From Thermodesulfovibrionales bacterium (GTDB lineage: Bacteria; Nitrospirota; Thermodesulfovibrionia; Thermodesulfovibrionales; UBA9159), in NCBI GenBank assembly GCA_035686305.1, contig DASRZP010000093.1:1-45408 (forward strand): a stretch of DNA of 45,408 nucleotides, read 5' to 3'. Each line of letters starts with the position of its first letter. Within the stretch, counting starts at the first letter, position 1. Below the pieces are notes generated by a model. That model saw only the letters and a program-made list of their open reading frames with translations, had not been told where the DNA came from and searched no databases. Below, piece by piece: positions 3,905-34,877 of the stretch. A program made the position numbers and the translations under genes.

Positions 3905-5044
3905 TTATTCCCTTGCTGCCTGTTTTGCAAAGACCATTGCCGTCGCCCGGTAGAACATATGGGCCATCTTCGAAAAGGGCGCGTAGGCGAAGAGGAAGAA
4001 GATGAAAACGAGATGGGTGACATAGATGGGATAAGCCAGGGCCGCGATATCGGCAAGCCTCAAGAGCTCGGAGAGTATGCCTGTTGCCATGATTGCAGTC
4101 ACAACCACAATGAAGAGCCAGTCAAAATAGCTGCCTGCCCCCGCCTTTTCAGCATTCTTCAGACGGTTGCTGATGACAAGGGACATCCCGATGAGGAGGG
4201 CAAGGGCACTTGCGTTTCCAAGAATCTTCATAGGATCATAGAGCGGATATGGCGATTCGCCGAAGTGGAAGAGCGACGAAGCCTGTATACCAAGGATTTC
4301 ATATCCATAGAGATACGCAATCGCCCAGGTCGTTGTTATCGCAAGTCCCACGAAGGCGTAGAATACGAGAAGGTGTGACGTTGATCTTGCCTGTGTTACA
4401 TTACACTTCTTGAACCTCTTGTGAGTAAGGATCTCAATAATCGTATCCTTGATGTGGGCTGTCAGGTTGCCTCTTAGCGTCACGCCGTTGCTCATCGCCG
4501 CCCAATACTTCCTGATTCCTGCGATAAAGCTCAGCACGGCAAAGACTGCTGCCGCGATGAATACCGTGTCGATGAGGGGAACAGGGATGAGCTTTGCATA
4601 AACGATCTCCCCTTCAGGGAGTCCCGAGAGGTATCCCCTGGCGCCGATAATCCCGAGAAAAATGAGCACCGGCAGTGCAAAGAGGAGGATCAGGTATTTT
4701 GAGTCGGCAACCATGTTCGCAAGAGCAGAGGGTGAAGAATACGTCTTGATCGTCATCTTCCTGATCGCGCCGAGCACCTCGCCCGGTTTAGCGCCCCGAG
4801 GGCAATATGCAGTACAGTCACTGCACTGATGGCATAGCCAGACATCGGGGTTGCTCAGAAGCTTGTCCTTCTGCCCCCACTGGGCAAGGACCATCTCCTT
4901 CCTCGGGAATGGCTTGTTGTCGGGAGTCACATTACATACCACAGAACATGTGGCACACTGGAAACACTTCTTGAGTGACTCTCCTCCGTTGTTGATGATC
5001 TCTTTAACAAAACTTAAATCCGGGCTTATCACCTGTTCCGCCAT
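3905..5044 (-). CDS. qmoC: Quinone-interacting membrane-bound oxidoreductase subunit QmoC
   Basis: A 379-residue fusion of an HdrC-like ferredoxin part and an HdrE/NarI-like cytochrome b membrane part. Two cysteine sets near the N-terminus, CFQCATCSVVC and CHQCSDCTAYCPRGAKP, bind [4Fe-4S] clusters. From about residue 110 onward there are five or six hydrophobic segments with spaced His residues (for example HLLVFYAFVG and HLVFIFFLFAY) suited to heme b. It anchors QmoAB to the membrane and takes electrons from menaquinol for APS reduction. The start has AGGAGG 7 bases upstream. It is the third gene of qmoABC, 98 bases after qmoB and 149 bases before hppA. Confidence 0.93.
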   Translation of the reverse strand: MAEQVISPDLSFVKEIINNGGESLKKCFQCATCSVVCNVTPDNKPFPRKEMVLAQWGQKDKLLSNPDVWLCHQCSDCTAYCPRGAKPGEVLGAIRKMTIKTYSSPSALANMVADSKYLILLFALPVLIFLGIIGARGYLSGLPEGEIVYAKLIPVPLIDTVFIAAAVFAVLSFIAGIRKYWAAMSNGVTLRGNLTAHIKDTIIEILTHKRFKKCNVTQARSTSHLLVFYAFVGLAITTTWAIAYLYGYEILGIQASSLFHFGESPYPLYDPMKILGNASALALLIGMSLVISNRLKNAEKAGAGSYFDWLFIVVVTAIMATGILSELLRLADIAALAYPIYVTHLVFIFFLFAYAPFSKMAHMFYRATAMVFAKQAARE

Positions 5045-5142
5045 GAATGAACCTCCTCTTTCAGATAGAGGCTGAAGTGAGGGTTACGAACCTATCCTTC
5101 TGCGTTCTTCAGCCTTTTTTCAGCTCAATCCTAACCTTTATC

Positions 5143-7377
5143 CTAAAATCCCTTAAACGGATTTGGGCCTATCTCCTTAACCTTCTCGACAAACTCGTTG
5201 ATCATCTCAGGCAGCCTGTCATACTCCGAGATCGCCACCTGCATCATCTGGACCCTCTCGGACTCGAGCTGCAGCCTGTTCAGAGTCTCTCCGATCTTGC
5301 TGAACCGGTAATTGGCGAGCTCGCTGCCCTTCACGAAGTGACACTGGTAGTTCTCTCCGTACTTGCAGCCGAGGAGAAGCACGCCGTCGATGCCTTTCGA
5401 AAGGGCATCGGCGACCCAGACGAGATTCATGCCGCCGAGACATCTCAGCGAGACAAACCTTACGCTTGGATCGATCCTCTTCCGATTGATCGCCGCCGTG
5501 TCCAGCGCAGGGTATGCATCGTTCTCGCAGACGAGGGCGATGATCCTGAACTCATCCTCCTCGGACTCAACAGACTTGATCATCGAGCCGACAATATCGA
5601 CACTGTAATCCTTGAAGGCGACGATCCTTTCTGGACATGCACCCATGCAGGTTCCGCAGCGCCTGCACCGGTTGATCTTGTAATAGGGTATCCCCTTCTC
5701 GTCTTCGTCAATTGCGCCGAAGGGGCATTCCTCGGTGCATCTCTTACAGGCAGTACACCTGATGAGCATCGGATCAGGGAAGGTGATGTCCCAGGCCCTT
5801 GGATGGACTGCGACACCCCTCGATACATGGTCAAGGCACTGTATCGCCTTAAAGGCCGCCCCTGCACCATCCTCCTGGGCCTCTGCCATGTTCATCGGCT
5901 GTCTCACACCGCCGGCAGCATAGATGCCGGTCCTCCTCGTCTCGTACTGGAAACAGATAAAATTCGAGTCCGCAAAACCGCAGGCGCCTTCAAGGGGCGG
6001 TATCTCAGGGCCCTGACGGTAGCCGAGGTTCAGAATAAATTCCGGCTTCGGCGTCGACTCGAGGTAAGCCTTTTTCGCCTCATCGCCCTTTGCAGCCGCC
6101 TGGGTTATTCCGTCAAGATATTCCTGGGGGGCCTTCGTCGTAGGCACCATGCCTGTTGCGAGCACGACGAGGTCAGCCTCGATCTTCACCTTCTCACCGA
6201 GCAAGGAATTTTCGGTCTCTACAAAGAGATTCCCCTTTCCTCCGTCTGTTACACCCGTCACGTCCGCCTTTGTCAGCATGACGCCGGGATCGTTCTGGGC
6301 CTCTTTATAATAGGCCTCAAGTCTTCCGGGGGTTCTGATATCGATATAAAATATCATCGCCAGGGCATCAGGGTTCTGCCTTACGTATTTCGCCTGTTTC
6401 AGGGATGTTGCGCAACACATGGCAGAGCAGTAGGGAAGATGGTTCGGGTTCCTGCTCCCCGCGCACTGAATGAAGGCGACCTTCTTCGCTTCTTTTCCGT
6501 CGGAGGGCCTGACGATCCTGCCGCCGTTCTTCCGGGCAATCTCCTCGAACTCAATATTGGTAACGACATCCTTGAACTTTCCGTATCCGAGATAGTCAAG
6601 TTTCGTCGCGTCATAGGGCTGCCAGCCCGAGGCCATAACGATCGCCCCGATCTTCATCGTTTCAGAACCGTCCTTTGACGCAATAGTCACATCGTAGAGA
6701 CCCGGCTGGCCGTCGGTCTTCTCCACGTATGCAGATTTATATACCTTGATATCAGGGTGGCTCTCTACCTCCCTAATGGTCTTCTCGATGTCAGTGTCAA
6801 CGATGAGGGGCTCCTGGAAGAAGTCGCCTGTAGGGATCTTCTTGTAAAGCCTGTTCGCAAAGCCCCCAAGCTGCGCCTCCTTTTCTACGAGCACAACCTT
6901 CTCGCCGGCCCTGGCCGCCTCAAGGGCCGCAGTCATTCCCGTGATGCCTCCGCCGATGACGAGGAGGGTCTCGGTAAGATCGGCGAGGATATTGGGTTCC
7001 GGCAGATCACCTTTCTGGGTCTTTATGATCCCCATGGTGAGGTAATCAGCGGCAACAGCCTGGGTCTCATCATTGTTCGGCTCCAGCGTCCATGCAACAA
7101 ATTCCCTGATATTCACACGCTCTGTTATCGTTCCTGGGAAATCGAACTCCTCAAACTTCACGCGGGGAGAACAGGCTGCGATAACGATGGTGTTCACACC
7201 TTCCTTCTCCATGTCCTCCGTAATCATTCCCACGCCATCGGGACTGCAGAGGATATCATGGGTCTTGCAGAGAGGGATCTTCATGTCCTTTATCGCAACA
7301 TTCGAGAGCTTATCTATATTGACGGCTTCACCAATACCGCAGCCCTTGCAGATATATACGCCATACTTTTTGTCCAT
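5143..7377 (-). CDS. qmoB: Quinone-interacting oxidoreductase subunit QmoB (HdrA-like with MvhD-like C-terminus)
   Basis: A 744-residue soluble iron-sulfur flavoprotein. It starts with a short Cys motif (YICKGCGIGEA), then an HdrA-type FAD-binding fold (VIGGGITGMTAALEAARAGE). Two ferredoxin motifs follow in the last third (CTACKRCTEECPFGAI and CRRCGTCMGACPERI). The last ~140 residues resemble the MvhD/HdrF-type delta subunit, with conserved Cys in CENDAYP, RCLGGMN and GCKYGENYQCHF. It shuttles electrons between QmoC and QmoA/AprBA; flavin bifurcation or confurcation has been proposed for this family. Its ATG follows the qmoA stop by 2 bases, and its GGAGGAGG ribosome site is written by the last Arg codons of qmoA, suggesting translational coupling. 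Confidence 0.95.
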   Translation of the reverse strand: MDKKYGVYICKGCGIGEAVNIDKLSNVAIKDMKIPLCKTHDILCSPDGVGMITEDMEKEGVNTIVIAACSPRVKFEEFDFPGTITERVNIREFVAWTLEPNNDETQAVAADYLTMGIIKTQKGDLPEPNILADLTETLLVIGGGITGMTAALEAARAGEKVVLVEKEAQLGGFANRLYKKIPTGDFFQEPLIVDTDIEKTIREVESHPDIKVYKSAYVEKTDGQPGLYDVTIASKDGSETMKIGAIVMASGWQPYDATKLDYLGYGKFKDVVTNIEFEEIARKNGGRIVRPSDGKEAKKVAFIQCAGSRNPNHLPYCSAMCCATSLKQAKYVRQNPDALAMIFYIDIRTPGRLEAYYKEAQNDPGVMLTKADVTGVTDGGKGNLFVETENSLLGEKVKIEADLVVLATGMVPTTKAPQEYLDGITQAAAKGDEAKKAYLESTPKPEFILNLGYRQGPEIPPLEGACGFADSNFICFQYETRRTGIYAAGGVRQPMNMAEAQEDGAGAAFKAIQCLDHVSRGVAVHPRAWDITFPDPMLIRCTACKRCTEECPFGAIDEDEKGIPYYKINRCRRCGTCMGACPERIVAFKDYSVDIVGSMIKSVESEEDEFRIIALVCENDAYPALDTAAINRKRIDPSVRFVSLRCLGGMNLVWVADALSKGIDGVLLLGCKYGENYQCHFVKGSELANYRFSKIGETLNRLQLESERVQMMQVAISEYDRLPEMINEFVEKVKEIGPNPFKGF

Positions 7378-7379
7378 CC

Positions 7380-8636
7380 CTACCTCCTCCTCAAGCTCTG
7401 GATGCTCTTCATAACAACACCCGTTGCATCCTGTGCTGACCGTGCAACATCAACAGGGCTCTTCAGTGTTCCCACCGCATAGACCCCCTTCTTTGCCGAT
7501 GTGTCCACAAACCCTTCCGGTGTATAGGAGAGATCCTTTATCGTCTTCGCTTCCCTTGTGCTCGGGGCCATTCCTGTTGCAAGGACTACCATGTCAAAGG
7601 TCGCCTTGATCTTGCCTTCGCCGAAGATGTCTTCGGCCTCGACAATGACGTCCTTTGTTACGGGGTCTTCGGTGATGCCTGCAACCTTCCCCTTCGTGAA
7701 GGTGACATTCGGATCGTCCTTCACCTTCCAGTAGAATCTCTGCTCATAGAGACCGGGGGTTCTGATGTCGATATAGAATATCCGGGCCTTTGAATCGGGA
7801 TACTGCTCCCTCACATAGAGGGTCTGCTTTAGCGAGGCCAGGCAGCAGATATAGGAACAGTAGGGGAGGTGATTCTCATCCCGTGATCCTGCACACTGGA
7901 CAAAGGCTATGTTCTTAACCTCTTTTCCGTCAGAAGGCCGGAGGATCTTCCCCTTTGTGGGACCGTTCGGCGCTGCGAGCCTCTCCATCATCATATTGGT
8001 TATCACGTTCTGGACCTTGCCGAATCCGAGGATATCCATCTTCGTCGCGTCATAGGGGTTCCAGCCCATGGCCATGACGATAGCACCGACCTTCAGGTTC
8101 ACCGTCTCCGGCTTCATGGCAAGGTCGATAGCGTCGTATTTACAGGCATCGAAACATGCCTTTTTGCAGTCACCGGCGCATGCCGTATCATCGATCACAT
8201 AGCGAAAGGGGAAGGCCTGATCAAAAGGCAGATATGCTGCCTTTGTCTTGTCCATGCCGAAGTTGAATGCGTTCTCCCGGAAGGAAGGGCATGCCTGGGC
8301 GCATGCATCGCACCCGACGCACCGCTCATTCACATAGCGCGGATGTATCTTGAGGGTCACATCGAAATTCCCCTCTTCACCCTTGACGTCAACGACCTCG
8401 GCGAGGGTATAGACCTTTACCTGCGAGCTGTTCTTTATCCTCTTGAACTGTATCTCGAGTCCACAGTTTGGGGGGCAGAGTTTCCAGAAATACTTGTTGA
8501 GCTGTGCCACCCTGCCGCCGAGGTACGGATTTTTTTCTACGATGACTACGTCACAGCCCGCCTCAGCCGACTCAACAGCCGCTGTAAGCCCGCTGAAACC
8601 TCCTCCAACCACGAGAACCGTTTTATTCTCTGCCAT
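7380..8636 (-). CDS. qmoA: Quinone-interacting oxidoreductase subunit QmoA (HdrA-like flavoprotein)
   Basis: A 418-residue HdrA-like protein with an N-terminal Rossmann motif (VLVVGGGFSGLTAAVESAE) for FAD and a ferredoxin motif CVGCDACAQACPSF. An added Cys cluster reads CAGDCKKACFDACKYDAI. A second dinucleotide-binding region runs to the C-terminus, including YAVGTLKSPVDVARS. It is shorter than QmoB and lacks the MvhD-like tail, as in known QmoA. AAGGAGG precedes the ATG. It heads qmoABC; a strong hairpin at 8775-8798 separates it from aprA, so qmo may have reduced read-through from apr or its own promoter. Confidence 0.94.
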   Translation of the reverse strand: MAENKTVLVVGGGFSGLTAAVESAEAGCDVVIVEKNPYLGGRVAQLNKYFWKLCPPNCGLEIQFKRIKNSSQVKVYTLAEVVDVKGEEGNFDVTLKIHPRYVNERCVGCDACAQACPSFRENAFNFGMDKTKAAYLPFDQAFPFRYVIDDTACAGDCKKACFDACKYDAIDLAMKPETVNLKVGAIVMAMGWNPYDATKMDILGFGKVQNVITNMMMERLAAPNGPTKGKILRPSDGKEVKNIAFVQCAGSRDENHLPYCSYICCLASLKQTLYVREQYPDSKARIFYIDIRTPGLYEQRFYWKVKDDPNVTFTKGKVAGITEDPVTKDVIVEAEDIFGEGKIKATFDMVVLATGMAPSTREAKTIKDLSYTPEGFVDTSAKKGVYAVGTLKSPVDVARSAQDATGVVMKSIQSLRRR

Positions 8637-8774
8637 CTCTATCCTCCTTAAGGCAGTAAATCACGCTGTACGGAAAATGGAACAGGGAAAAGGGAAAACC
8701 GATCATGAATAAACTATGATTAAGCCTGAGCGTAGTATTTTCCATCTTCCATCTTGCATTTTCCGTGAAACAAT

Positions 8775-8798
8775 CGGGGAGGGCTGATGCCCTCCCCG
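8775..8798 (-). terminator. Perfect 10-bp hairpin between aprA and qmoA
   Basis: Arms CGGGGAGGGC and GCCCTCCCCG with a TGAT loop, 12 bases after the aprA stop. On the minus strand it is followed by GATTGTTTCAC, only weakly T-rich, so it may be a partial terminator or a 3' stabiliser of the apr transcript rather than a full stop. A separate 10-bp inverted pair, ACGGAAAATG near 8671 and CATTTTCCGT near 8757, lies closer to qmoA. Confidence 0.5.
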
Positions 8799-8809
8799 TG
8801 TGAGGTCGA

Positions 8810-10813
8810 CTACGATACCATCTGGACGTAGGGAACTTTCTTCAATTCCCACCCGTGAGTTTCTGCATTGTACTTCGAATTGGTGAAGCACTTCCAATCT
8901 TTATCATCGATCTTGTTGAAGTCGCCCCTGTAATAGTAGCCCGGGTACCTGGACTCCTGCCTGAAGAGGATGTGCCGTGCGTGAGCTTCAACCGAAAGGA
9001 TGCGGTGATAATTCTCATTGCACCTCAGCAGCTCATGGAGGTCCTTTGCCGCCATCTTGTTCGCGTCCTCTTTGAGCATCTCGAGCTTCTTGAGACCTTC
9101 TTCGAGCATGGTCTTTGAGGTCATGTACCAGGTTGACACCCCTCCGAAGTACTCGTCGGCGATCTTCTGGAGCCTCAACTGAAGGGCCTTCGGGCCGATG
9201 TAATTGGGGTTGATCGTAGGATCGGTTGAATAGGTTTTGTATTTCTCATATATCTCGAAGGGCAGATACATCTCGGCCGTGACTTCGTCAGCCGACTTCT
9301 TCGGTGTCGGCTTGTAGTCGGGATGGTCGAGGATGTATGCTAACGCAGCCTTTGCAGCTAGCCTGCCTTCTGCGTGAGAACCTGAGGAGAATTTGTGGCC
9401 CGATGCTCCGACAACGTCACCGGCCATGAAGAGACCGGGTACGGTGGACATCCTGTTATATCCCCAGCTGTAGTGTTCCGGAGTGCCGGGAATATCGCCG
9501 GGGCCGCTTACCCAGAACCCTGCGCAGCCTGCATGGGAACCGAGGAGATAGGGCTCTGTCGGCATGATCTCGGAAGGGACCTTATCAGGCTCGGTATTCG
9601 TTGCCGCCCATATGGACGCCTGTCCGATAGCCATATCGAGGAAGTCTTCCCAGGCCTCTGCCTCAAGGTGTTTCATCTTCTTGGCTCCTTCTTTGTCGCC
9701 AAGCTTCTCTTTGAAGGCCTTGCCCAATTCAGCCATAGCCTCGTGCGTCCTCATGATGATCGGACCCTTTCCGTCCTTCATGGCCCTCATCATGAGGTGG
9801 TTCCTGATAGCCGTTCCGAGACCCTTTGCATAGTCTCCATATCTTGCAACGGCATCATCGAAATATTCCTTGTCCGCGCAGTAATCGCTTCCATAGCTGT
9901 CAGTTGCCTTCGCCTTGAAAAAGAGGAACCATGCGCCGACAGGACCATAGCCGTCCTTAAACCTCGCAGGCACGAACCGGTTCTCCATCAAGGTCATCTC
10001 GGCGCCTGCCAGCATTCCGAAAGCATAACCTGAACCCGCGCTGAATACCGGGTACCAGGTCCTTCCCATACCCTCACCGACCGACCTCGGCCTAAAGACA
10101 TTAACGGCTCCGGCACATGCGTTGATGATAGCCTTCGCCTTAAAGATATAGGTCTTGTTCTCTCTGACGCTGAAGCCCGCCGCTCCTGCCACGTGCTTCC
10201 CGTCCACATCCATAAGAGGGCTGTGGATCAAGACCCTCTCGAAATGGTTCTGGGCCATTCCGGTCTTTTCCCTGTTGGTCTGGAGGGCCTTCTTTGCAGC
10301 CTCTGCAACAATGACCTTATAAGATTCACCGTTGATCATGATCTGCCATTTGCCGGACCTCACCGGCGTTCCGCCGTCCTTGAGCGATGCCTTGCCAGCA
10401 TCCCTTGCCTGGAAGCCGTCGAGGGAGAATCCGTCATCACCCTTCTTCCAGATCGGGAGTCCCCACTCTTCAAAGAGCTTGACGGAGTCATCAACGTGCC
10501 TGCCGAGGTCAAAGACAAGGTCTTCCCTGATGATGCCCATCAGGTCGTTTCTTACATACTTTACATAATCGGCGACTTTGTTCTCACCGACATAGGTATT
10601 GATAGCCGACAGACCCATGGCGACTGCACCGCTTCTGTCCGTTGCTGCCTTGTCGACAAGGACAACCTTCAGTCCCTTTTCGTTTGCCCACCGGCATGCT
10701 TCGAATGCAGCGCCGCAACCTGCCATACCGCCACCCATAATAAGGAGATCGGTCTCAACCTCGGTCACTTCAGGCTTCGCACAAAATGAAAATGTACAGG
10801 TTTCTTTTTCCAT
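8810..10813 (-). CDS. aprA: Adenylylsulfate (APS) reductase alpha subunit
   Basis: A 667-residue flavoprotein of the fumarate reductase/succinate dehydrogenase fold. The N-terminal FAD motif is LLIMGGGMAGCGAAFEA, and a later FAD-contact region reads GLFMAGDVVGASGHKFSSG. The SGPGDIPGTPEHYSWGYNRM stretch and a long C-terminal helical part are typical of AprA. It reduces APS to sulfite and AMP in the cytoplasm as a complex with AprB. GGAGGTG precedes the ATG, and aprB ends 13 bases upstream. The length and the aprB-aprA order fit the dissimilatory reductive type; direction (reduction, not oxidation) is inferred from qmoABC and hppA nearby. Confidence 0.96.
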   Translation of the reverse strand: MEKETCTFSFCAKPEVTEVETDLLIMGGGMAGCGAAFEACRWANEKGLKVVLVDKAATDRSGAVAMGLSAINTYVGENKVADYVKYVRNDLMGIIREDLVFDLGRHVDDSVKLFEEWGLPIWKKGDDGFSLDGFQARDAGKASLKDGGTPVRSGKWQIMINGESYKVIVAEAAKKALQTNREKTGMAQNHFERVLIHSPLMDVDGKHVAGAAGFSVRENKTYIFKAKAIINACAGAVNVFRPRSVGEGMGRTWYPVFSAGSGYAFGMLAGAEMTLMENRFVPARFKDGYGPVGAWFLFFKAKATDSYGSDYCADKEYFDDAVARYGDYAKGLGTAIRNHLMMRAMKDGKGPIIMRTHEAMAELGKAFKEKLGDKEGAKKMKHLEAEAWEDFLDMAIGQASIWAATNTEPDKVPSEIMPTEPYLLGSHAGCAGFWVSGPGDIPGTPEHYSWGYNRMSTVPGLFMAGDVVGASGHKFSSGSHAEGRLAAKAALAYILDHPDYKPTPKKSADEVTAEMYLPFEIYEKYKTYSTDPTINPNYIGPKALQLRLQKIADEYFGGVSTWYMTSKTMLEEGLKKLEMLKEDANKMAAKDLHELLRCNENYHRILSVEAHARHILFRQESRYPGYYYRGDFNKIDDKDWKCFTNSKYNAETHGWELKKVPYVQMVS

Positions 10814-10826
10814 GGATATTCACCTC

Positions 10827-11246
10827 CTATTCGTTTCTTGCCGGACCGGTAAAGAAGCCGGGCTTTTTCAGCGTCGCAAAATCAGGCGTCGGTTTTCCGG
10901 CATAGGGATCAACCGAACCTTCTGCCGTTGACCGGATGGGGAACTTGAACCTCTTGAGGATCCCGTTCCTGAATTTGATCGTCCACATGATGGAGTCAGT
11001 GCCTCTCAAAGGGATCGTGCTGGACCCGAGGGGAACAAAGTCCGAGTAACCCCTGACCTCGATCGCCTGCTGAGGGCAGATCTTCACGCAGTTAAAGCAC
11101 TCCCAGCACTGCTCGGGCTCCTGATTGTATGCCTTCATCTTCTCTCTGTTGAGGGCCATCAAATCATGGGGACAGATATACTGGCAGGCTGTCTTATCCT
11201 GAGCCTTGCATCCGTCACACTTCTCGGTGATCACAAAACTTGGCAT
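10827..11246 (-). CDS. aprB: Adenylylsulfate (APS) reductase beta subunit
   Basis: A 139-residue ferredoxin-like subunit. The first set of ligands is CDGCKAQDKTACQYICPHD, with the wide spacing usual for AprB; the second is CWECFNCVKICPQQAIEV. After the clusters comes a beta-rich tail (GYSDFVPLGSSTIPLRGTDS) that wraps AprA in known structures. It passes electrons from QmoABC to the FAD of AprA. AGGAGG lies 7 bases before the ATG. A 165-base gap with a hairpin separates it from sat upstream. Confidence 0.95.
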   Translation of the reverse strand: MPSFVITEKCDGCKAQDKTACQYICPHDLMALNREKMKAYNQEPEQCWECFNCVKICPQQAIEVRGYSDFVPLGSSTIPLRGTDSIMWTIKFRNGILKRFKFPIRSTAEGSVDPYAGKPTPDFATLKKPGFFTGPARNE

Positions 11247-11346
11247 GTCAAAACCTCCTTCGGATATAGTGTTGATAATTGGCTTTTTAACCTAAAGCCT
11301 CAGGGTCTTGCTGAACCTTCACCCCCTCTCGTCATAAAATGGGGCT

Positions 11347-11384
11347 GGGGATTGGCGATCAGGGATTTGCTTTCGGCAATCCCC
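11347..11384 (-). terminator. Inverted repeat between sat and aprB
   Basis: Arms GGGGATTG (11347-11354) and CAATCCCC (11377-11384) with a 22-base loop. On the minus strand the hairpin is followed after seven bases by TTTT. It could attenuate transcription between sat and aprBA, or be a short palindromic repeat of the kind scattered through genomes. No other copy is seen in this window. Confidence 0.3.
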
Positions 11385-11411
11385 AATCTCTCATCCCTAG
11401 TCCCCTTATTT

Positions 11412-12620
11412 TTATGCGCCTTCTGCATATTTGTGTGTCTTGATCTCGACCTTCTCGGTCAGGCCCTCATAGTATTTTCTGAGGATCGCCAGGACCTCAG
11501 GCCGGCTGAACTTATCGGAAACATCTTCGCCCTCTGAGAGCATCTTTCTCAGCTTCGTGCCGCTCAGGAGAAGCCTGTCTTCCTTGCCGTGGGGACAGGT
11601 CCTCATCGAGGCCATGCCGTCGCACTTGTGGCACCAGAACGTCCAATCGATCTTGAGGGGCTTTGTCTCGAGGGCGTCCTTCGGAATCTCATCAAAGATC
11701 TTCTGGGCATCAAAGGGCCCGTAGTACTCACCGACACCGGCATGGTCGCGGCCAACGATGAGATGGCTGCAGCCGTAGTTCTGCCTGAAGAGGGCGTGGA
11801 GAAGGGCCTCCCTCGGACCCGCGTATCTCATGTCGAGGGGATAGCCGCCGATAACGATGGTGTTCTTTACGAAGTATTTTTCCGTGAGCATATCGATTGC
11901 CTTCTGACGGACATCGGAAGGGATGTCTCCCGGCTTCAGTTTGCCGAGGAGCATATGAACAAAGACACCGTCGCAGGTCTCGATGGCGATTTTGCAGAGG
12001 TACTCGTGGGAGCGGTGCATCGGGTTCCTCGTCTGAAAGGCTGCAACGGTCTTCCAGCCTTTTTCGAGGAAGAGATGCCTCGACTGCGCTGGGGTCAGAT
12101 AGATCTCGGGATATTCCTTCGGAAATGTTGCCTCGCTGAGGACCTTGACAGGGCCGGCGAGGTTCGTCCCGGCCTGATCCATGACCATCTTCACACCAGG
12201 ATGCTCTACATCAGCGGTCTTGTAAATCTCTTTGCACTCATACTGCTTGTCGATCTTGTAGCTTTCCGTGACCTTCATAGTCGCCATGATCTCGCCGAAC
12301 TCCTCGGAGAAGAGGGCCACCTCGTCGCCCGGCTTTACGCTCTCGTCCGTCGAGACTGTTACCGGAATCGGCCAGAACGTGCCGTCGGCCATCTTATAAT
12401 CGCCACAGATGTCCTTCCAGTCTTCGTACCCCATGAAGCCTTCGATCGGTGTAAACCCGCCGATACCGATCATGATAAGGTCGCCGGTCTCGCGGGACGA
12501 TATCCTGATCTGCTTCAGGGATTTTGCCCTTTTCTTTTCTTCCTCCAGTTCCTTGCCGGTGAGCAGAAGCGGTTTCAGTTTCTTCTCTTTTCCATGCGGA
12601 TTAACCAGTGACATATCCAA
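11412..12620 (-). CDS. sat: Sulfate adenylyltransferase (ATP sulfurylase)
   Basis: A 402-residue homo-oligomeric-type ATP sulfurylase. It has the ATP-site motif [13 protein letters not shown], the loop [19 protein letters not shown] and the [12 protein letters not shown] motif. A Cys/His group near the C-terminus (WCHKCD...TCPHG) probably binds zinc, as in other bacterial Sat proteins. There is no APS-kinase domain. It activates sulfate with ATP, giving APS and PPi in the cytoplasm. Upstream (minus strand) is adk after a 291-base gap, downstream aprBA. The start is preceded by AGGAGG at suitable spacing. Confidence 0.96.
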
Positions 12621-28423: not shown

Positions 28424-30163
28424 TCAGCGGGACACAATCTTGCTTACCGGACTACTCCCCGGGAATGGCGCAAAGTAGTGGGAGTGTTGCCCCTTTCCCC
28501 CTGCGATGACGATCTGCAAATATTCAGGGGTGAGGGTGATCGGAACAAGGGTATCAGGGGTGACTACGTTAAATTTTTCTCTAAAGGCTGCCTGATTAGG
28601 GCACCCCTTTGCCCAGGAAGAAAAGGGAATGCGGGCCTTTTCCCAGATGGCCTTCCTGATCTGGTCTTTGGTCCAGCCAGCCTTTGCATAGATCTCCGCA
28701 TGCTCAGGACCCAGCCCTATGATGTGAGATTGTTCCATCTGGCTTGTCCAGCACGGGCCGCCAATGCTCAGAAGTGGAGAGACCGCATGGCTGAACCAGT
28801 TTGAAAGCTCCTCAGGGGTTGAACTCCACAAATCCACCACATTTGTGGGGGGCCAGATGCCCATCACGGTTACCACACTGTCATCCTTCTTAAAGCCCTT
28901 GTCAACATGGTACGGACGCCAACCCTTGGGAAGAGCGTCCTCATTCTCCCCAAATATCCAGGCAACAAAATCCGCGGGTGAGCCGAGAGTGGTCTTCTTC
29001 GGCGACGGAGGTTTTGAGCCGCCCACAACGGCTGCAATCAAATCAATGGCATAACCGATGGACGCATTGGCATGGTGCATTCTGCTGGCAGCCCCCTGAC
29101 TGTAGGCGAGGCCGATCTCTTTCACAATCGGTCCGTTCACGATCACCAGTGCCCCGATGGAGCCTGTGGATGTCGCTGAGCCACGCCAGTTTGCCTCAGG
29201 TGAAATGAGCGCCTCCATGGCCGCGATGAGCACAGGCATATATTCAGGCTTGCATCCGGCCATTACTGCATGGGCCGCTACCAACTCAACGGTAAGGGAG
29301 CCCATTCTCGGTGGAACCTGACCCAGAACCTGATCAGGTCTACGGCTGGTTCCCTTAAGCATCTCTGACACTTTCTCCGGGGTAGGCGCCATGATAGGCA
29401 GACCAAGGGACCACCCTCTTTCAAAAAACAGAGTATTGATGTCCTCATGCATACCTTTGAACATAAGTGTCTCAGCCGGATATGTAAGTTTCTTGGGCGG
29501 CATTTCTGCCACGGGTTTCCACTTTATTGCGGCATCAAGGATAGCCGGAAAAACATCTTTGGCCTTTTGCGTGATCTCCTCGATCGGAATTCCCCCCATC
29601 GGATGGGGCACAACGACAAAGCTCATATCAGCCGCGCCTTGACTCATTGCGGTATCCTTGGACAGACCGACAAACTCAGATGTGGCGATGGAAACAGTGG
29701 GAATGCCCATCCTTTCCAGATTCAGCTGGTCAACTACCAGCCACGAGGTGCAGGAGCCTCAATCGGCCTGGCCGGCAATTACAAGATCGGGTCTAAATGC
29801 AGCTATGCGCTGTGCAAGCTGCCTGCTCTTTTCCGGATTCTGGCTGATGATCTTAACTTCCGGGGCCTCTTGCCAGGCCTTAATAATCTTGATGTTCTTC
29901 ACATTTTCTATGAGGAGAGCCGCGACTTGGTTCAGGAAATTATCCCCGTTCTGTTTTCCATTCCATTGGAGCACCACCGTCTTTCCTTCAAGGCTGACCG
30001 GATGAGGATTGACCTTCATCGGTTCAATGTTAACGACACCCTCAGGGTTGATGAGCTTCACTTCATCGCCTCCCTCCCGGGATGATGTGATGGCAGGCAA
30101 GAACAAGAGAGCAACTGAGAAAAAGAGTATCCCAAAGCCTATGAGGTTCCTTCTTTTCATCAT
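28424..30163 (-). CDS. Exported UGSC-family selenoprotein (in-frame UGA = Sec135)
   Basis: Read with one in-frame TGA (29761-29759) as selenocysteine, the two frames 30163-29762 and 29758-28424 join into one 579-residue protein. Sequence around it is GQAD-U-GSCTSWLVVDQLNLER, matching the family motif [C/U]GSCTS, where many relatives have Cys. Both sides of the TGA fit the family: SLEGKTVVLQWNGKQNGDNFL before and MGIPTVSIATSEF after. A SECIS-like hairpin lies 17 bases past the UGA. The N-terminus MMKRRNLIGFGILFFSVALLFL is a signal peptide or anchor, so the redox site is probably outside the inner membrane. The C-terminal ~370 residues (for example GWSLGLPIMAPTPEKVSEML) are a second domain of unknown role. 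AGGAGGG precedes the ATG. The family reaction is unknown to me; a thiol/selenol redox role is inferred. Confidence 0.85.
29725..29741 (-). promoter_or_regulatory. Bacterial SECIS-like hairpin
   Basis: GCTGGT-AGTTG-ACCAGC: 6 perfect pairs, extendable by two G-U pairs (29723-29743), with a 5-base loop having G at position 2. The loop lies 23 bases after the UGA. Small apical loop, G in the first two loop bases and this spacing all fit the bacterial SECIS consensus read by SelB. Confidence 0.75.
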
Positions 30164-30190
30164 GACATCCCTCCTTTGCGGTTAAGGCAG

Positions 30191-30682
30191 TCATTTCTCG
30201 ACAGGGTATCCGGCCTTCATCCATCCCCTGATGGATGGATCAACCAGAACCTTCACGTTGCTAAATCTCATCTCTCTTAACCGTTCTGCCAGTTCGGAAG
30301 CGTCAGCCTCGCCAGGGCCGCAATCACAATAGGTTACTATCATTTTGTTCCGGGGGAACCGTCTGACGTTTTCTTCCGTTAGTCTCGCACTCCAGGGAAA
30401 GGAGATGGCTCCCTTAATGTGCCCCTTGTCATAGACGGCCTTGGGCTGTGCGTCGAGAATCACAATATCGGCCCCCCTGTCCATCTCCTCCTTCAGTTCG
30501 TCTATCGTAATGCGCGGAATATCTTTATGTGCTGAGCCGTCCTGGCAGGATATGCACGTGTCCCTCCCCGGCGCTTCACCTTGGAGTCCTTCATCGTAAG
30601 GAAGAAGGAACGTCGGTTCTTGCCACGCGAGCATCATAAAGGCAAAGAGAACAACGAGGTTTCTTACGTCACAATGCTCCAC
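30191..30682 (-). CDS. Exported rhodanese-domain protein
   Basis: A 163-residue protein. The N-terminal hydrophobic stretch NLVVLFAFMMLAW is a probable signal peptide or anchor. After a short linker with DTCISCQDG comes a single rhodanese domain: ITIDELKEEMDRGADIVILDAQP, YDKGHIKGAISFPW, and the active-site loop TYCDCGPGEADASELA with the catalytic Cys at the YCDC position. It would transfer or bind sulfane sulfur or act on a thiol outside the cytoplasm. GTG start is uncertain (no good ribosome site). The UGSC selenoprotein begins 27 bases downstream, so the two are probably one transcript. Confidence 0.85.
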   Translation of the reverse strand: MEHCDVRNLVVLFAFMMLAWQEPTFLLPYDEGLQGEAPGRDTCISCQDGSAHKDIPRITIDELKEEMDRGADIVILDAQPKAVYDKGHIKGAISFPWSARLTEENVRRFPRNKMIVTYCDCGPGEADASELAERLREMRFSNVKVLVDPSIRGWMKAGYPVEK

Positions 30683-30698: not shown

Positions 30699-30866
30699 TT
30701 ACTTAAATGATATCAAATTTCCGGCTGTAGCGAAGTGGCACTCGGAGACTTGCAAAATCCACAATTCCACAGCTCTCACCTGACCTTTTATTCCCGTTGA
30801 AACGCCTTTTCCTCCCACCTCAAAGCAGACGCTATTGTGCAGGCCGCTGGTACCGACGATGTTCAT
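30699..30866 (-). pseudogene. Possible carbamoyltransferase N-terminal remnant after the NRPS
   Basis: A 55-codon frame begins MNIVGTSGLHNSVCF directly behind a very good ribosome site (AGGAGGG, 4 bases) and overlaps the last codons of the NRPS by 35 bases, as a translationally coupled next gene would. The first ~15 residues resemble the N-terminus of NodU/CmcH-type carbamoyltransferases found in biosynthetic clusters; the rest matches nothing I recognise. The likely reading is a gene cut off after its first codons by deletion. The similarity is short, so it may be a chance frame. Confidence 0.3.
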
Positions 30867-33800
30867 TTTCCCTCCTGCCATCACGGTCTTCAAGCAATGT
30901 GTTCACTTCGTCTTCTGAGAGTTCAGCCACCTTCAGCAAAAGTTTTGCCCGTTTTTCCAATTGTTCGGGTTTGCCCGTGCTGCACAGTGCCCCAGCCAGA
31001 CCTTCCACCGTTGGCCACTCAAACATGTAGCGCAGCGGGAAGTCTTTGTCAAAGGCGAGTCTCATACGGGATATGACCCGAGTCGCCTGCAGGGAATTCC
31101 CACCCAGCTCGAAAAAGTTATCATGGACCCCTACGTGTCTGAGTTTGAGGACCTCGCTCCATATTCCTGCAAGTATTTTCTCGATGGGAGTACGGGGAAG
31201 GACATGTGCAGTCTCAATATCGGGCCGCCCTGAGTCAGGCGGCGGTAGTGCCTTGCGGTCTATCTTTCCGTTTGGCGTCAGAGGCAGAGCATCGAGCAGC
31301 ATGAAGGAGGATGGTATCATGAAGGCGGGCAATTTTTCTGTCAGAGATTGTACAAGGGACTTCCTTAAGGCAGTGGTCATTTGCTCCTTCAGTGGGTTGT
31401 TGGCATAGGATTCCAGAGATTTCGGGCGTGAAGTCTCCTGCGGGAATGAAACAGGCGGGACGCGTCCAATCGTGGTATCCGCCGGATCGCGATACCGGAA
31501 GAGAGCATCAAAATATGCCGGCCCGCCGGCGTCCGACCATGTAATGTCCACGGCATAAGACAGATCATCACCAAGCTTCCAGAAGGCTTCAGGATGCACG
31601 GCCTCTGCCAGCATCTGCTCAACCATTTCTCTCAGTTCGCGGGCGGTACGCAGTGCTTTGTGCTCAACAAGATCGACGGCAGCAAAGGTTTCCGGAAAGG
31701 TCCGGGCGTTCGGTACACATGTCACACGCACTGCCTTTGGCATATTTTCCCGCAAATACCGGGACAAGACAGTGAGCGTCAAATTATTATTTTTCCAGTC
31801 GAGGCATCGCTGCTCTGTCGGCAGAGGCTCTTTGCCATCAATATGAAGGATACTGTCATAACGGAACCGTATTAATTCATTTTGGTGGAGGCCGCGTTTC
31901 AGCAGAGCGTCTACATGGCTGATCCTCGGAAAATAAGAGCGCAAAGAGTGAAAAAACCGAGGGTCAATGAGCAACTCTTTTTCGTGAAGTATGTCTCTGT
32001 TGACACGCTGATACAGTTCGTCGGCAGATACATTGTCCTGCGCACCCGACAAGGTGACGGAAACATGAAACGCTTCGAGGAGCGCCAGATTGCGTACGTC
32101 TCCTATAAAAATAAACCCGCCGGGCTCAACAACCTCAATCGTGCCACGGATAACTGTAACGAGATACTCTACACTGGGAAAATACTGTATGACACCATTG
32201 ATGATTACTGCATCGAAACGTTGTTTGCCTACGACCCTCAGATTGTCGGCGCTGCCATGGAACAGCCTGACACGGGAACGATGATCGCCGAGGAGGTCCA
32301 GATGACGCTGTACGTAATTGAGCGCAGGCTGCGAGAAATCCATGCCCCAGTAAAGGGAGCAAAGAGGCGCCACGCGGAACAGGATGCGGCCCAGGCCGCA
32401 TCCGATTTCCAGTACACGGGAGGGCTTCAGTGAAATGATTCGCTCTGCAGCACCATTGACCCATTCCCGTGTCTCAACCTCTTCAACGGGTTTTCCGGTG
32501 TAACTGCTGTTGACGCCGGCAGTGTTGGTAGCGGGATCTTTGACGTCAGGGGAATCGAGAAAGGTGCCATCATAGATTGTTTGCCATTGTTCGACCCGTT
32601 CACGTTGCATTTCCGGTGTGTGCTTCTTAATCTGCTCAAAGCCCGGGCCGGCAACGAGGTACGCTACCAATCGCTTGTCACCGGGGTTATCTTCCCGGAT
32701 AATTACGACTGCCTCACGAACTGCCGGATGTTGCAAAAGAGTTGCTTCGATCTCCCCCAGCTCAATTCGAAATCCACGAAGTTTCACCTGATGGTCGATA
32801 CGGCCCAAATACTCTATGTCGCCATCGGGCATCCAACGGCCTAAATCGCCTGTTTTGTATAGTCGGCTTCCGGGTTCGTCACTAAAGGGGTTTGGAATGA
32901 ACTTCTCCGCAGTAAGCTCAGGGCGGTTCAGATAGCCACGGGACAATCCGGCGCCGCCTATATAGAGCTCGCCGGGTGTCCCTGCAGGCGCCGGCTGTTG
33001 ATGGCGATCGAGTATGTAAACCTGGAGGTCGGGAAGGGGAAGGCCGATGAAGCTGCCTTTCTTATTTACATCGGCTACTGTCAGGGGGCGATAGGTAGCA
33101 TGAACTGTGGTTTCGGTGATTCCGTACATGTTGACAAGCCGGGGATGTTGATCCCCATGGCCTTGAAACCATGGCCTCAAGCCTTGAAGTTCAAGGGCCT
33201 CGCCCCCGAGTATGATGAAGCGCAAGGAAAGGTCATTGCCCTCTCTGCCCGCGGAAAGTTCATCTGAGCGCATCAGTTGGTAGAAGGCGGAAGGAGTCTG
33301 ATTGAGAACGGTTACACGCCCTTTGCAGAGCAACTCACGGAACTCTTCAGGCGAACGGCTTATGAGATAGGGGACTATTACAAGAGTCCCGCCGTACAGA
33401 AGCGCACCAAATATCTCCCAGACAGAAAAATCAAAGGCATAAGAGTGGAATAATGTCCACACATCATGCTCGTTAAAGCGAAAGAGGTATTCGGTTGCAG
33501 TAAACAAGCGAGCTATGTTACCATGGCTTACCATAACCCCTTTGGGTGTACCTGTGGAGCCTGAGGTATACATTACGTACGCAAGATTTCCGGATGTTAC
33601 ACCGGCAGCAGGATTCTTCGCGATCTCTTTCGATGTGGTCTCCCGGAGAATGTCCAGACACAGCATATGCGCATTACAAACGGGAAGTGTACGAAGCAGG
33701 CGCTCCTGTAACAGCAGCACGGGTACTTGTGAATCTCCGATCATAAAGCTGAGACGTTCTTTGGGATAGGCGGGGTCCAGAGGCACATATGCTCCGCCTG

Positions 33801-34155
33801 CCTTAAGGATGCCAAGGATGCCGATGATCATCTCCAGGGAACGCTCCACATAGATGCCTACGAGCACCTCGGGGCCGATTCCCTGCTTTATCAGGTAATG
33901 GGCCAGCTGATTCGCCCTGCGGTTCAGCTCCCGGTACGTAAGCTTCTGTTCCTCAAAGGCCACTGCAACAGCATCCGGGCTCCTTTCCACCTGCTCCTCA
34001 AAGAGCTCATGAATGCATTTGTCGGCTCGGTGCTCTCTACCGGTATTGCTCCACATAGGGTTATTACAGGGAGAGGGCCCAGAGTCATCACTGTGAGACT
34101 GGGCAGAACATGTCATGGATCCGAACTTCTCATTACTCAGCCCGTTTTTACGCAT
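30832..34155 (-). CDS. Single-module NRPS: adenylation domain interrupted by a methyltransferase, plus carrier domain (A-MT-T)
   Basis: A 1107-residue protein. The adenylation core (about 40-480) has YTSGSTGTPKGVM (A3), NMYGITETTVHATY (A5), YKTGDLGRW (A7) and GRIDHQVKLRGFRIELGEIE (A8). A methyltransferase of ~400 residues (about 500-905, SAM motif VLEIGCGLG near 582) is inserted between A8 and A9. A9 (LPAFMIPSSF) and A10 (NGKIDRKAL) follow, then a carrier domain with phosphopantetheine Ser1021 in GGNSLQ. There is no condensation or thioesterase domain. Specificity residues read from the pocket, D-F-W-N-(I)-G-M-V-H-K, match the published threonine code. Product: probably an (N-)alkylated Thr held on the carrier, but acceptor and product are unknown. 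It overlaps the CmoA-like gene by 19 bases. Confidence 0.9.
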   Translation of the reverse strand: MRKNGLSNEKFGSMTCSAQSHSDDSGPSPCNNPMWSNTGREHRADKCIHELFEEQVERSPDAVAVAFEEQKLTYRELNRRANQLAHYLIKQGIGPEVLVGIYVERSLEMIIGILGILKAGGAYVPLDPAYPKERLSFMIGDSQVPVLLLQERLLRTLPVCNAHMLCLDILRETTSKEIAKNPAAGVTSGNLAYVMYTSGSTGTPKGVMVSHGNIARLFTATEYLFRFNEHDVWTLFHSYAFDFSVWEIFGALLYGGTLVIVPYLISRSPEEFRELLCKGRVTVLNQTPSAFYQLMRSDELSAGREGNDLSLRFIILGGEALELQGLRPWFQGHGDQHPRLVNMYGITETTVHATYRPLTVADVNKKGSFIGLPLPDLQVYILDRHQQPAPAGTPGELYIGGAGLSRGYLNRPELTAEKFIPNPFSDEPGSRLYKTGDLGRWMPDGDIEYLGRIDHQVKLRGFRIELGEIEATLLQHPAVREAVVIIREDNPGDKRLVAYLVAGPGFEQIKKHTPEMQRERVEQWQTIYDGTFLDSPDVKDPATNTAGVNSSYTGKPVEEVETREWVNGAAERIISLKPSRVLEIGCGLGRILFRVAPLCSLYWGMDFSQPALNYVQRHLDLLGDHRSRVRLFHGSADNLRVVGKQRFDAVIINGVIQYFPSVEYLVTVIRGTIEVVEPGGFIFIGDVRNLALLEAFHVSVTLSGAQDNVSADELYQRVNRDILHEKELLIDPRFFHSLRSYFPRISHVDALLKRGLHQNELIRFRYDSILHIDGKEPLPTEQRCLDWKNNNLTLTVLSRYLRENMPKAVRVTCVPNARTFPETFAAVDLVEHKALRTARELREMVEQMLAEAVHPEAFWKLGDDLSYAVDITWSDAGGPAYFDALFRYRDPADTTIGRVPPVSFPQETSRPKSLESYANNPLKEQMTTALRKSLVQSLTEKLPAFMIPSSFMLLDALPLTPNGKIDRKALPPPDSGRPDIETAHVLPRTPIEKILAGIWSEVLKLRHVGVHDNFFELGGNSLQATRVISRMRLAFDKDFPLRYMFEWPTVEGLAGALCSTGKPEQLEKRAKLLLKVAELSEDEVNTLLEDRDGRRENEHRRYQRPAQ

Positions 34156-34877
34156 AACACACCAATAAAATTAAACCACTGGAAAAAAGGCTCTGATACT
34201 GCAAATCCGTTGCGGTTGAGCAATGCCAGGTTCTGCTGGATGCTGTACGGTATGAGCACGTCTTTCAGAGCGCCTTCCTTGCGGATGATCTCCTGTTCGG
34301 AATAGCCGTTTCTCCGCTTATAATCGTGGTACGAATCAATAAACAAATCGTTCAGGATTTCTTCCTCAAGAACGATCTTTTCAGTCAATAGCAGGGCGCC
34401 GCCAGCGACCAGGCCCTTGTAAATCCATTGTATGACCTTCTCTCTTTGCGGCGGAGGGATGAACTGCAGTGTCCAGCACAGAGTAATGACACTGGCTTTT
34501 TCGAGGGAAAGAGTTGTGAGGTCCCCGCTCAAATCGCCGTAACGCAATTCTATCCGGTTGCTCAGACCACTGTCCCTGACCTTGCGTTCGGCTTTTTTAA
34601 TCAAGGGAAGAGAACTGTCATAACCAATAAAGCGCGCTGCTCCGTCAAACTCCCTGCAAAGGTTGATAATCGTTGTGGCAGTAGAGCAGCCGAGATCGTA
34701 AACATATGTCTCCGGCTTCCAGAACCTCTTGGCGAGTTTGACGACAATGCGTTGCTGCTCCTCATAAAAGGGGATGCTCCGTTGCAGCATGTCGTCGAAT
34801 ACCTCGGCGACTTCTTCGTCGAATTCAAATTTTCGGGATGCTGAGCCGGATGATTGAAAAATAGTATCTCTCTTCAC
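34137..34877 (-). CDS. CmoA-like SAM-binding protein
   Basis: A 246-residue class I methyltransferase-fold protein, colinear with E. coli CmoA (carboxy-SAM synthase, ~247 residues): RDTIF start, FDEEVAEVFDDMLQRSIPFY, SAM motif VYDLGCSTATT, WTLQFIPPPQREKVIQWIYKGL and SYHDYKRRNGYSEQEI. CmoA converts SAM plus prephenate to carboxy-SAM for tRNA cmo5U modification. By my recalled E. coli sequence, the Arg (R199) that holds the carboxylate aligns with Glu201 here (IIRKEGAL). No cmoB is next to it; instead it overlaps an NRPS carrying a methyltransferase domain. It may therefore be a CmoA paralogue working in the NRPS pathway. GTG start with AGAGG 7 bases upstream. Confidence 0.8.
   Translation of the reverse strand: MKRDTIFQSSGSASRKFEFDEEVAEVFDDMLQRSIPFYEEQQRIVVKLAKRFWKPETYVYDLGCSTATTIINLCREFDGAARFIGYDSSLPLIKKAERKVRDSGLSNRIELRYGDLSGDLTTLSLEKASVITLCWTLQFIPPPQREKVIQWIYKGLVAGGALLLTEKIVLEEEILNDLFIDSYHDYKRRNGYSEQEIIRKEGALKDVLIPYSIQQNLALLNRNGFAVSEPFFQWFNFIGVLCVKTG

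Follow-up and report, generated by a model that had tools for sequence, protein, structure and literature searches.

Selenoproteins with a UGSC motif were treated as a major family in the 2008 GOS survey, with 255 selenocysteine (Sec) and 21 cysteine (Cys) members, and a UGSC/Unknown_1 fusion was also named there (PMC2398784). The same survey, in the passages concerned, guessed at a thioredoxin-like (Trx-like) fold and suggested a role as thiol/selenol oxidoreductase (PMC2398784). A 2026 inventory entered the family as NF041046, with the motif UGSC (PMC13188914), and no function of UGSC is stated in those passages of either paper.

The gene described here is a further member of these already described selenoproteins, the fusion form included. 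It lies in a stretch of 45,408 nucleotides, analysed at its full length and called ‘the window’ below, from a Thermodesulfovibrionales bacterium (GCA_035686305.1, contig DASRZP010000093.1), the source genome of which comprises 3.23 Mb in 147 contigs and is 97.7% complete. We regard it as highly probable that the locus is a full-length UGSC selenoprotein gene, with a product predicted to be exported, in which UGA135 is read as Sec and for which a role as a selenol enzyme forms part of the best explanation. New here are the synonymous-site evidence, the clade of (predicted) exported Sec forms and the genes around them, and the relation to GrdB: UGSC, an abundant aquatic selenoprotein family, is now placed beside glycine reductase GrdB by profile comparison.

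Gene structure and family membership

On the minus strand, an open reading frame begins with ATG at 30163 and runs for 134 codons to a TGA (29761-29759), past which the register is unchanged down to a second TGA (28426-28424), the true stop. The initial annotation, made from the letters of the sequence, had described two frames in the same register parted by one TGA, and its coordinates and frame proved exact. Joined, the translation has 579 residues, with the first TGA as residue 135 in the context AGQAD-U-GSCTSWLVVDQ; this single in-frame TGA coincides with the U of the U-G-S-C-T-S motif. Stop-to-stop gene calling would cut such a selenoprotein gene in two. The features of the locus are as follows (basis in brackets).

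28424..30163, minus strand: UGSC/Unknown_1 selenoprotein gene, product predicted to be exported, 579 aa, U135 (frames, family models, homologues of the same architecture)
30170..30176, minus strand: Shine-Dalgarno-like AAGGAGG upstream of the ATG at 30163 (sequence inspection)
30080..30163, minus strand: predicted signal peptide, about residues 1-28 (sequence; model helix 2-25; signal peptides or lipoboxes of homologues)
29531..30055, minus strand: UGSC domain (PF24696), alpha/beta, GrdB-like (Pfam, profile comparison, model)
29759..29761, minus strand: in-frame TGA, selenocysteine 135 (homologous codon TGA in 35 genes)
29725..29741, minus strand: SECIS hairpin GCUGGU-AGUUG-ACCAGC, six Watson-Crick pairs (loop 23 nt past the UGA; comparative codon test)
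28427..29494, minus strand: C-terminal domain, probably ‘Unknown_1’ of the 2008 survey (no Pfam family, no convincing solved fold)
30191..30682, minus strand: rhodanese-like protein with a YCDCGPGE active-site loop (PF00581; 27 nt upstream of the selenoprotein gene)

The Pfam model PF24696 (UGSC) covers residues 37-211, crossing the TGA, and scores 130.6 bits with the joined protein (cut-off 25) as against only 28.9 and 50.2 bits with the separate halves, in keeping with the earlier claim that family sequence runs straight through the TGA. With the joined protein, the NCBIfam model NF041046 (UGSC family (seleno)protein) reaches 130.2 bits (cut-off 125). Where the family motif is [UC]GSC, the TGA codon of the window aligns with the Cys of Cys homologues, so that the placement of the TGA on the [C/U] of a GSCTS motif, also proposed initially, holds for U135. 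The protein is thus like the described family in passing both curated cut-offs, in carrying Sec on the U of the motif and in belonging to a set with Sec and Cys versions, but it differs by its predicted export and by a further domain of 350 residues, which is likely the Unknown_1 domain as named in the relevant passage of PMC2398784. The genome itself yielded a single UGSC gene. No relative was found in the viral contigs searched, and a PHROGs search and a sequence search of solved structures returned nothing relevant.

Selenocysteine machinery

Absence of selABCD and tRNA-Sec had been named as grounds for rejecting a selenoprotein; the genome contains its own tRNA-Sec (70.6 bits; anticodon TCA according to ARAGORN), selB (378.8 bits), selA (609.1 bits, sharing a contig with selB) and selD (360.2 bits). 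The selD gene itself has one in-frame TGA, with the active site RTCGUAAKIG. Other genes of the window, as well as the selenoprotein gene itself and the upstream rhodanese gene, use TGA as their stop.

Homologues with TGA at the same codon

The window protein was aligned with three relatives, and a scan of GTDB genomes with this alignment yielded 71 loci. The homologous codon is TGA in 35 genes, spanning at least five phyla, and Cys in about 50 genes. Among 86 UGSC domains placed in a tree, the window protein falls in a clade of 31 members (30 Sec and one Cys; support 100/99) that takes in most of the Sec forms; its members come from Nitrospirota, Thermodesulfobacteriota, other deltaproteobacteria, Chloroflexota, Bacillota and one Burkholderiales bin; nearest to it in the tree are L035 (a Nitrospiraceae bin) and L036 (a Syntrophaceae bin). 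The sole Cys member of the clade, the lipoprotein L044 (TGC), retains a SECIS-like hairpin, as is expected of a recent change from Sec to Cys. The distribution within the phylum is sporadic, with three of 396 genomes positive at the threshold used, a lower bound given that the GTDB scan found more copies in one of them. One Nitrospiraceae bin (AlinenLipids_bin-2809) has seven or more UGSC genes in which the Sec codon is TGA; its contigs CAIJNL010000014, 18, 35, 36, 37 and 46 hold loci L035, L037, L041, L042, L043 and L048.

The hairpin and its codons

Just past the UGA, the transcript can form a stem of GCUGGU (29741-29736) and ACCAGC (29730-29725) around the loop AGUUG (29735-29731), which has G at position 2 and lies 23 nt from the UGA. 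A bacterial SECIS was taken to be a hairpin with an early G in its loop, 16-37 nt past the UGA and under constraint, and the hairpin of the window has all of these properties. Most TGA genes likewise have the loop 23-24 nt downstream of the UGA. The hairpin is the minimum-energy fold of its stretch, with an energy that is ordinary relative to shuffles (z -0.72), and the mean folding energy of the stretch, being similar in TGA and Cys genes, is uninformative. A stem of six or more Watson-Crick pairs that satisfies loose bacterial SECIS criteria is found after 1.7% of window positions and, among TGA triplets, after about 2%. With the geometry fixed exactly (a 5-base loop with G as its second base, distance 23-24), the count is 10 of 90,696 positions. 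Taken alone, the hairpin is weak, suggestive evidence, a coincidence of about 1 in 50: the initial annotation described its geometry correctly but gave it more weight than that chance, per TGA, allows.

The stem is invariant in the main group, which makes covariation there uninformative, and codon use was tested in its place. In the 28 genes with the peptide L-V-x-D-Q, L is written as CTG, D as GAC and Q as CAG, each in 28 of 28 cases, where 10.3, 15.4 and 22.6 are expected from the same genes. A single codon is used throughout in only three of 60 conserved degenerate columns, namely those of CTG, GAC and CAG, which lie on both sides of the stem; the mean share of the commonest codon over the 60 columns is 0.57. 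As the 28 genes are related, the nominal probability is not to be taken literally, and the other columns of the same genes serve as the control. It is this codon-level test that tells a genuine SECIS from a hairpin that arose by chance.

In more distant paralogues, a hairpin of this kind is built from unrelated sequence. Those with another peptide (KATRDV) have AGCUACG-CGUGA-CGUAGCU in L043, L044 and L079, and GUCGUGG-AGUGU-CCACGAC is found in the cytosolic forms L024 (Acidovorax plasmid p2-T1) and L103 (a Myxococcales bin). The cytosolic UGSC fusion L024 of Acidovorax sp. T1 (NZ_CP021650.1, 7923-9620) has its in-frame TGA at 8211, together with a good hairpin; the only annotation given here in the record is a 96-aa hypothetical protein, with nothing beyond, so the selenoprotein was missed.

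How the UGA is read

The recoding of UGA135 as Sec is strongly supported by these comparisons; it can be regarded as settled because the TGA and the stem are conserved in homologues, rather than on account of the hairpin alone. A lone in-frame stop in a contig assembled from a metagenome would a priori also fit a decaying gene with a nonsense mutation, or an error of sequencing or assembly, with the downstream frame untranslated, and the closest relative, L034 (Nitrospiraceae UBA9159; 84% identity), cannot confirm the codon: its sequence has NN at two places (5829-6193), one of which replaces 78 bases including the Sec codon and leaves it unreadable. The same TGA is present at the homologous codon of 35 genes in independent assemblies, however, which disposes of the read error that the initial annotation had listed as a possible refutation. 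Decay is further contradicted by the single-codon conservation of the stem, by a downstream frame of 445 residues that is otherwise intact and keeps its conserved residues, and by the complete Sec machinery. The comparative evidence already refutes both decay and error, which we consider extremely improbable. Hardly more credible is translation of the UGA as an ordinary amino acid, under another genetic code or by near-cognate read-through. Read-through alone would give an identical frame, but genes of the window, including this gene and the rhodanese gene, stop at TGA, the genome has tRNA-Sec and SelA/B/D, cytosolic relatives have Cys at the position, and the hairpin is under synonymous constraint. 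The first proposal, a UGSC selenoprotein read through its UGA, therefore stands, on the family model, the machinery, the 35 TGA genes and the synonymous-site selection in the stem.

In the proposed mechanism of Sec insertion, SelB with Sec-tRNA would recognise the hairpin just past UGA135, leading to the insertion of selenocysteine, and the terminal TGA, without such a hairpin, would end translation. The resulting Sec-x-x-Cys site would sit at the start of a helix within the GrdB-like alpha/beta domain and, given the signal peptide, is predicted to act in the periplasm or at the membrane surface.

Predicted export

The first 25 residues of the window protein form a hydrophobic helix (by sequence, and as helix 2-25 in the AlphaFold2 model). 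By a simple hydrophobicity rule, the N-terminus is hydrophobic in 29 of 35 Sec genes versus 2 of 51 Cys genes. In several Sec genes a lipobox takes the place of an ordinary signal peptide, and most members of the clade have one or the other; the clade is hence predicted to be exported, by differing types of signal. The protein had been called exported from the outset: the signal-like N-terminal helix and the signal peptides and lipoboxes of homologues agree with this, and export itself stays a prediction. L024 and L103 are cytosolic Sec forms, and Sec is thus not strictly tied to export.

Structure and remote relatives

The AlphaFold2 model of the window protein (pLDDT 89.9, pTM 0.88) was computed from an alignment with one plasmid-record row left out. 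The UGSC domain alternates strands and helices in the order beta-alpha-beta-alpha-beta, with Sec after the third strand: U135 directly follows strand 127-133 and starts helix 136-151. The best solved matches of the domain are generic Rossmann/flavodoxin-like folds (Z 9-10), which is the predicted fold, and no thioredoxin fold around UxxC is among the matches listed.

By hhalign, the UGSC domain matches the C-terminal Sec domain of GrdB with 93-95% probability, Sec on Sec, where the N-terminal half of GrdB, used as a control, reaches 1%; the two Sec domains are remote homologues. The UGSC domain shares with GrdB (PF07355, TIGR01917) and PrdB the series U-G-x-C-T, helix, G-I-P and (P)HP-x-G. It differs in that TIGR01917 gives just 12.9 bits with the window protein (cut-off 602.2), a weak match that fits the profile relation, and in that PF07355 is unmatched at E<=1; the window protein also has no GrdB N-terminal half and is predicted to be exported. 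A statement of the UGSC-GrdB relation was not found in the literature searched. Apart from these, the GRDB-like frame of L107 (G400:C8) contains an in-frame TGA within a UPVC motif and apparently encodes another selenoprotein of the GrdB superfamily.

Modelled alone, the C-terminal domain reaches pLDDT 91.4. It has no invariant Cys and no match to a Pfam family. Kinship of this domain with GrdE or GrdB is unsupported by profile comparison, and its weak Gly_reductase matches fall in the same alpha/beta superfamily. Foldseek points to cyclic amide hydrolases (E 4e-4, but TM 0.22) and, lower in its list, to class I fumarases; the best VIA-align Z is only 5.4, so no fold was assigned.

The Sporomusa and Vibrio plasmid counterparts of the full-length fusion (L025, 7743-9467; L026, 7758-9443) have GDMGTS in place of [UC]GSC; the fold persists there without the Sec/Cys pair, and aconitase X genes adjoin.

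Genomic neighbourhood

The rhodanese gene, 27 nt upstream of the UGSC gene and with an exported-looking product, is likely in the same operon, and a rhodanese homologue is found near (predicted) exported UGSC genes in many loci, the window included. Its best NCBIfam match is NF041203 (rhodanese-related (seleno)protein), with a score of 58.9 bits, which is under the cut-off of 115; where that family has CxU, the window rhodanese has CxC, with Cys rather than Sec, and it is predicted to be exported.

At loci of the exported form, a second exported protein consists of the C-terminal domain alone (13 loci); a separate copy of this Unknown_1 domain was searched for in the genome itself and not found. 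Other recurrent neighbours are a MauE/DoxX membrane protein by a short U-G-H-C lipoprotein, and cytochrome c554. A TAT-exported DUF6282 protein recurs beside exported Sec forms, and DUF6282 is also found beside the split, cytosolic Cys forms of haloarchaea. The cytosolic Cys forms stand in neighbourhoods of organic-acid and CoA catabolism, with CoA transferases, acyl-CoA synthetases/dehydrogenases, PEP mutase-type enzymes, aconitase X and TRAP transporters; the names of the clusters around these Cys forms were given partly by inspection.

Possible function

Functional proposals for the protein draw on remote homology and neighbourhood. The selenol could serve an enzyme as its nucleophile in catalysis or as its redox group. 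The substrate to be activated or reduced would be small and probably of the carboxylate type, the C-terminal domain would help to bind it, and the CxC rhodanese would be the partner for redox chemistry or sulfur transfer; to this proposal as a whole we would give somewhat less than an even chance. Comparably plausible, and likewise short of probable, is a simple periplasmic thiol/selenol oxidoreductase, that is, a thioredoxin-like electron or disulfide carrier rather than a GrdB-like substrate-activating enzyme. Such a carrier would suit the UxxC motif, the CxC rhodanese, the MauE/DoxX membrane protein and cytochrome c genes of several exported loci, and the Trx-like fold guessed in 2008 in the passage of PMC2398784 cited above. 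It sits poorly with the predicted Rossmann/flavodoxin-like fold, in which beta and alpha elements alternate, with the profile relation to GrdB, with a large C-terminal domain that has no invariant Cys, and with relatives (Sporomusa, Vibrio) that have neither Sec nor Cys at the site.

Under the GrdB-like reading, and more tentatively still, the exported UGSC clade may represent a so far undescribed periplasmic selenium-dependent system. Its parts would be a GrdB-like selenoenzyme fused to the Unknown_1 domain, an exported lone-domain protein and the exported rhodanese with its CxC, joined in some genomes by a short UGHC selenolipoprotein and a MauE-type membrane protein; it would activate or reduce a substrate outside the cytoplasm, and the window would hold a reduced version (selenoenzyme and rhodanese). 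The conserved neighbourhood of the exported forms and the relation to GrdB make UGSC function directly testable.

Other observations

Short UGSC-family lipoproteins of about 210-225 aa with the motif UGHC occur at L039 (1948), L079 (9775), L091 (9320), L094 (1069) and L044 (2643), and several of them adjoin the MauE/DoxX membrane protein and a rhodanese.

Elsewhere in the window, the minus strand at 3905-12620 carries sat, aprA and qmo genes (sulfate adenylyltransferase, adenylyl-sulfate reductase alpha, QmoC and two HdrA-like proteins), so that the organism has genes of dissimilatory sulfur metabolism. Positions 30832-34155 (minus strand) encode a protein like a nonribosomal peptide synthetase, with one module and a methyltransferase domain inside it, and upstream of this gene lies one for a CmoA-like methyltransferase (34137-34877).
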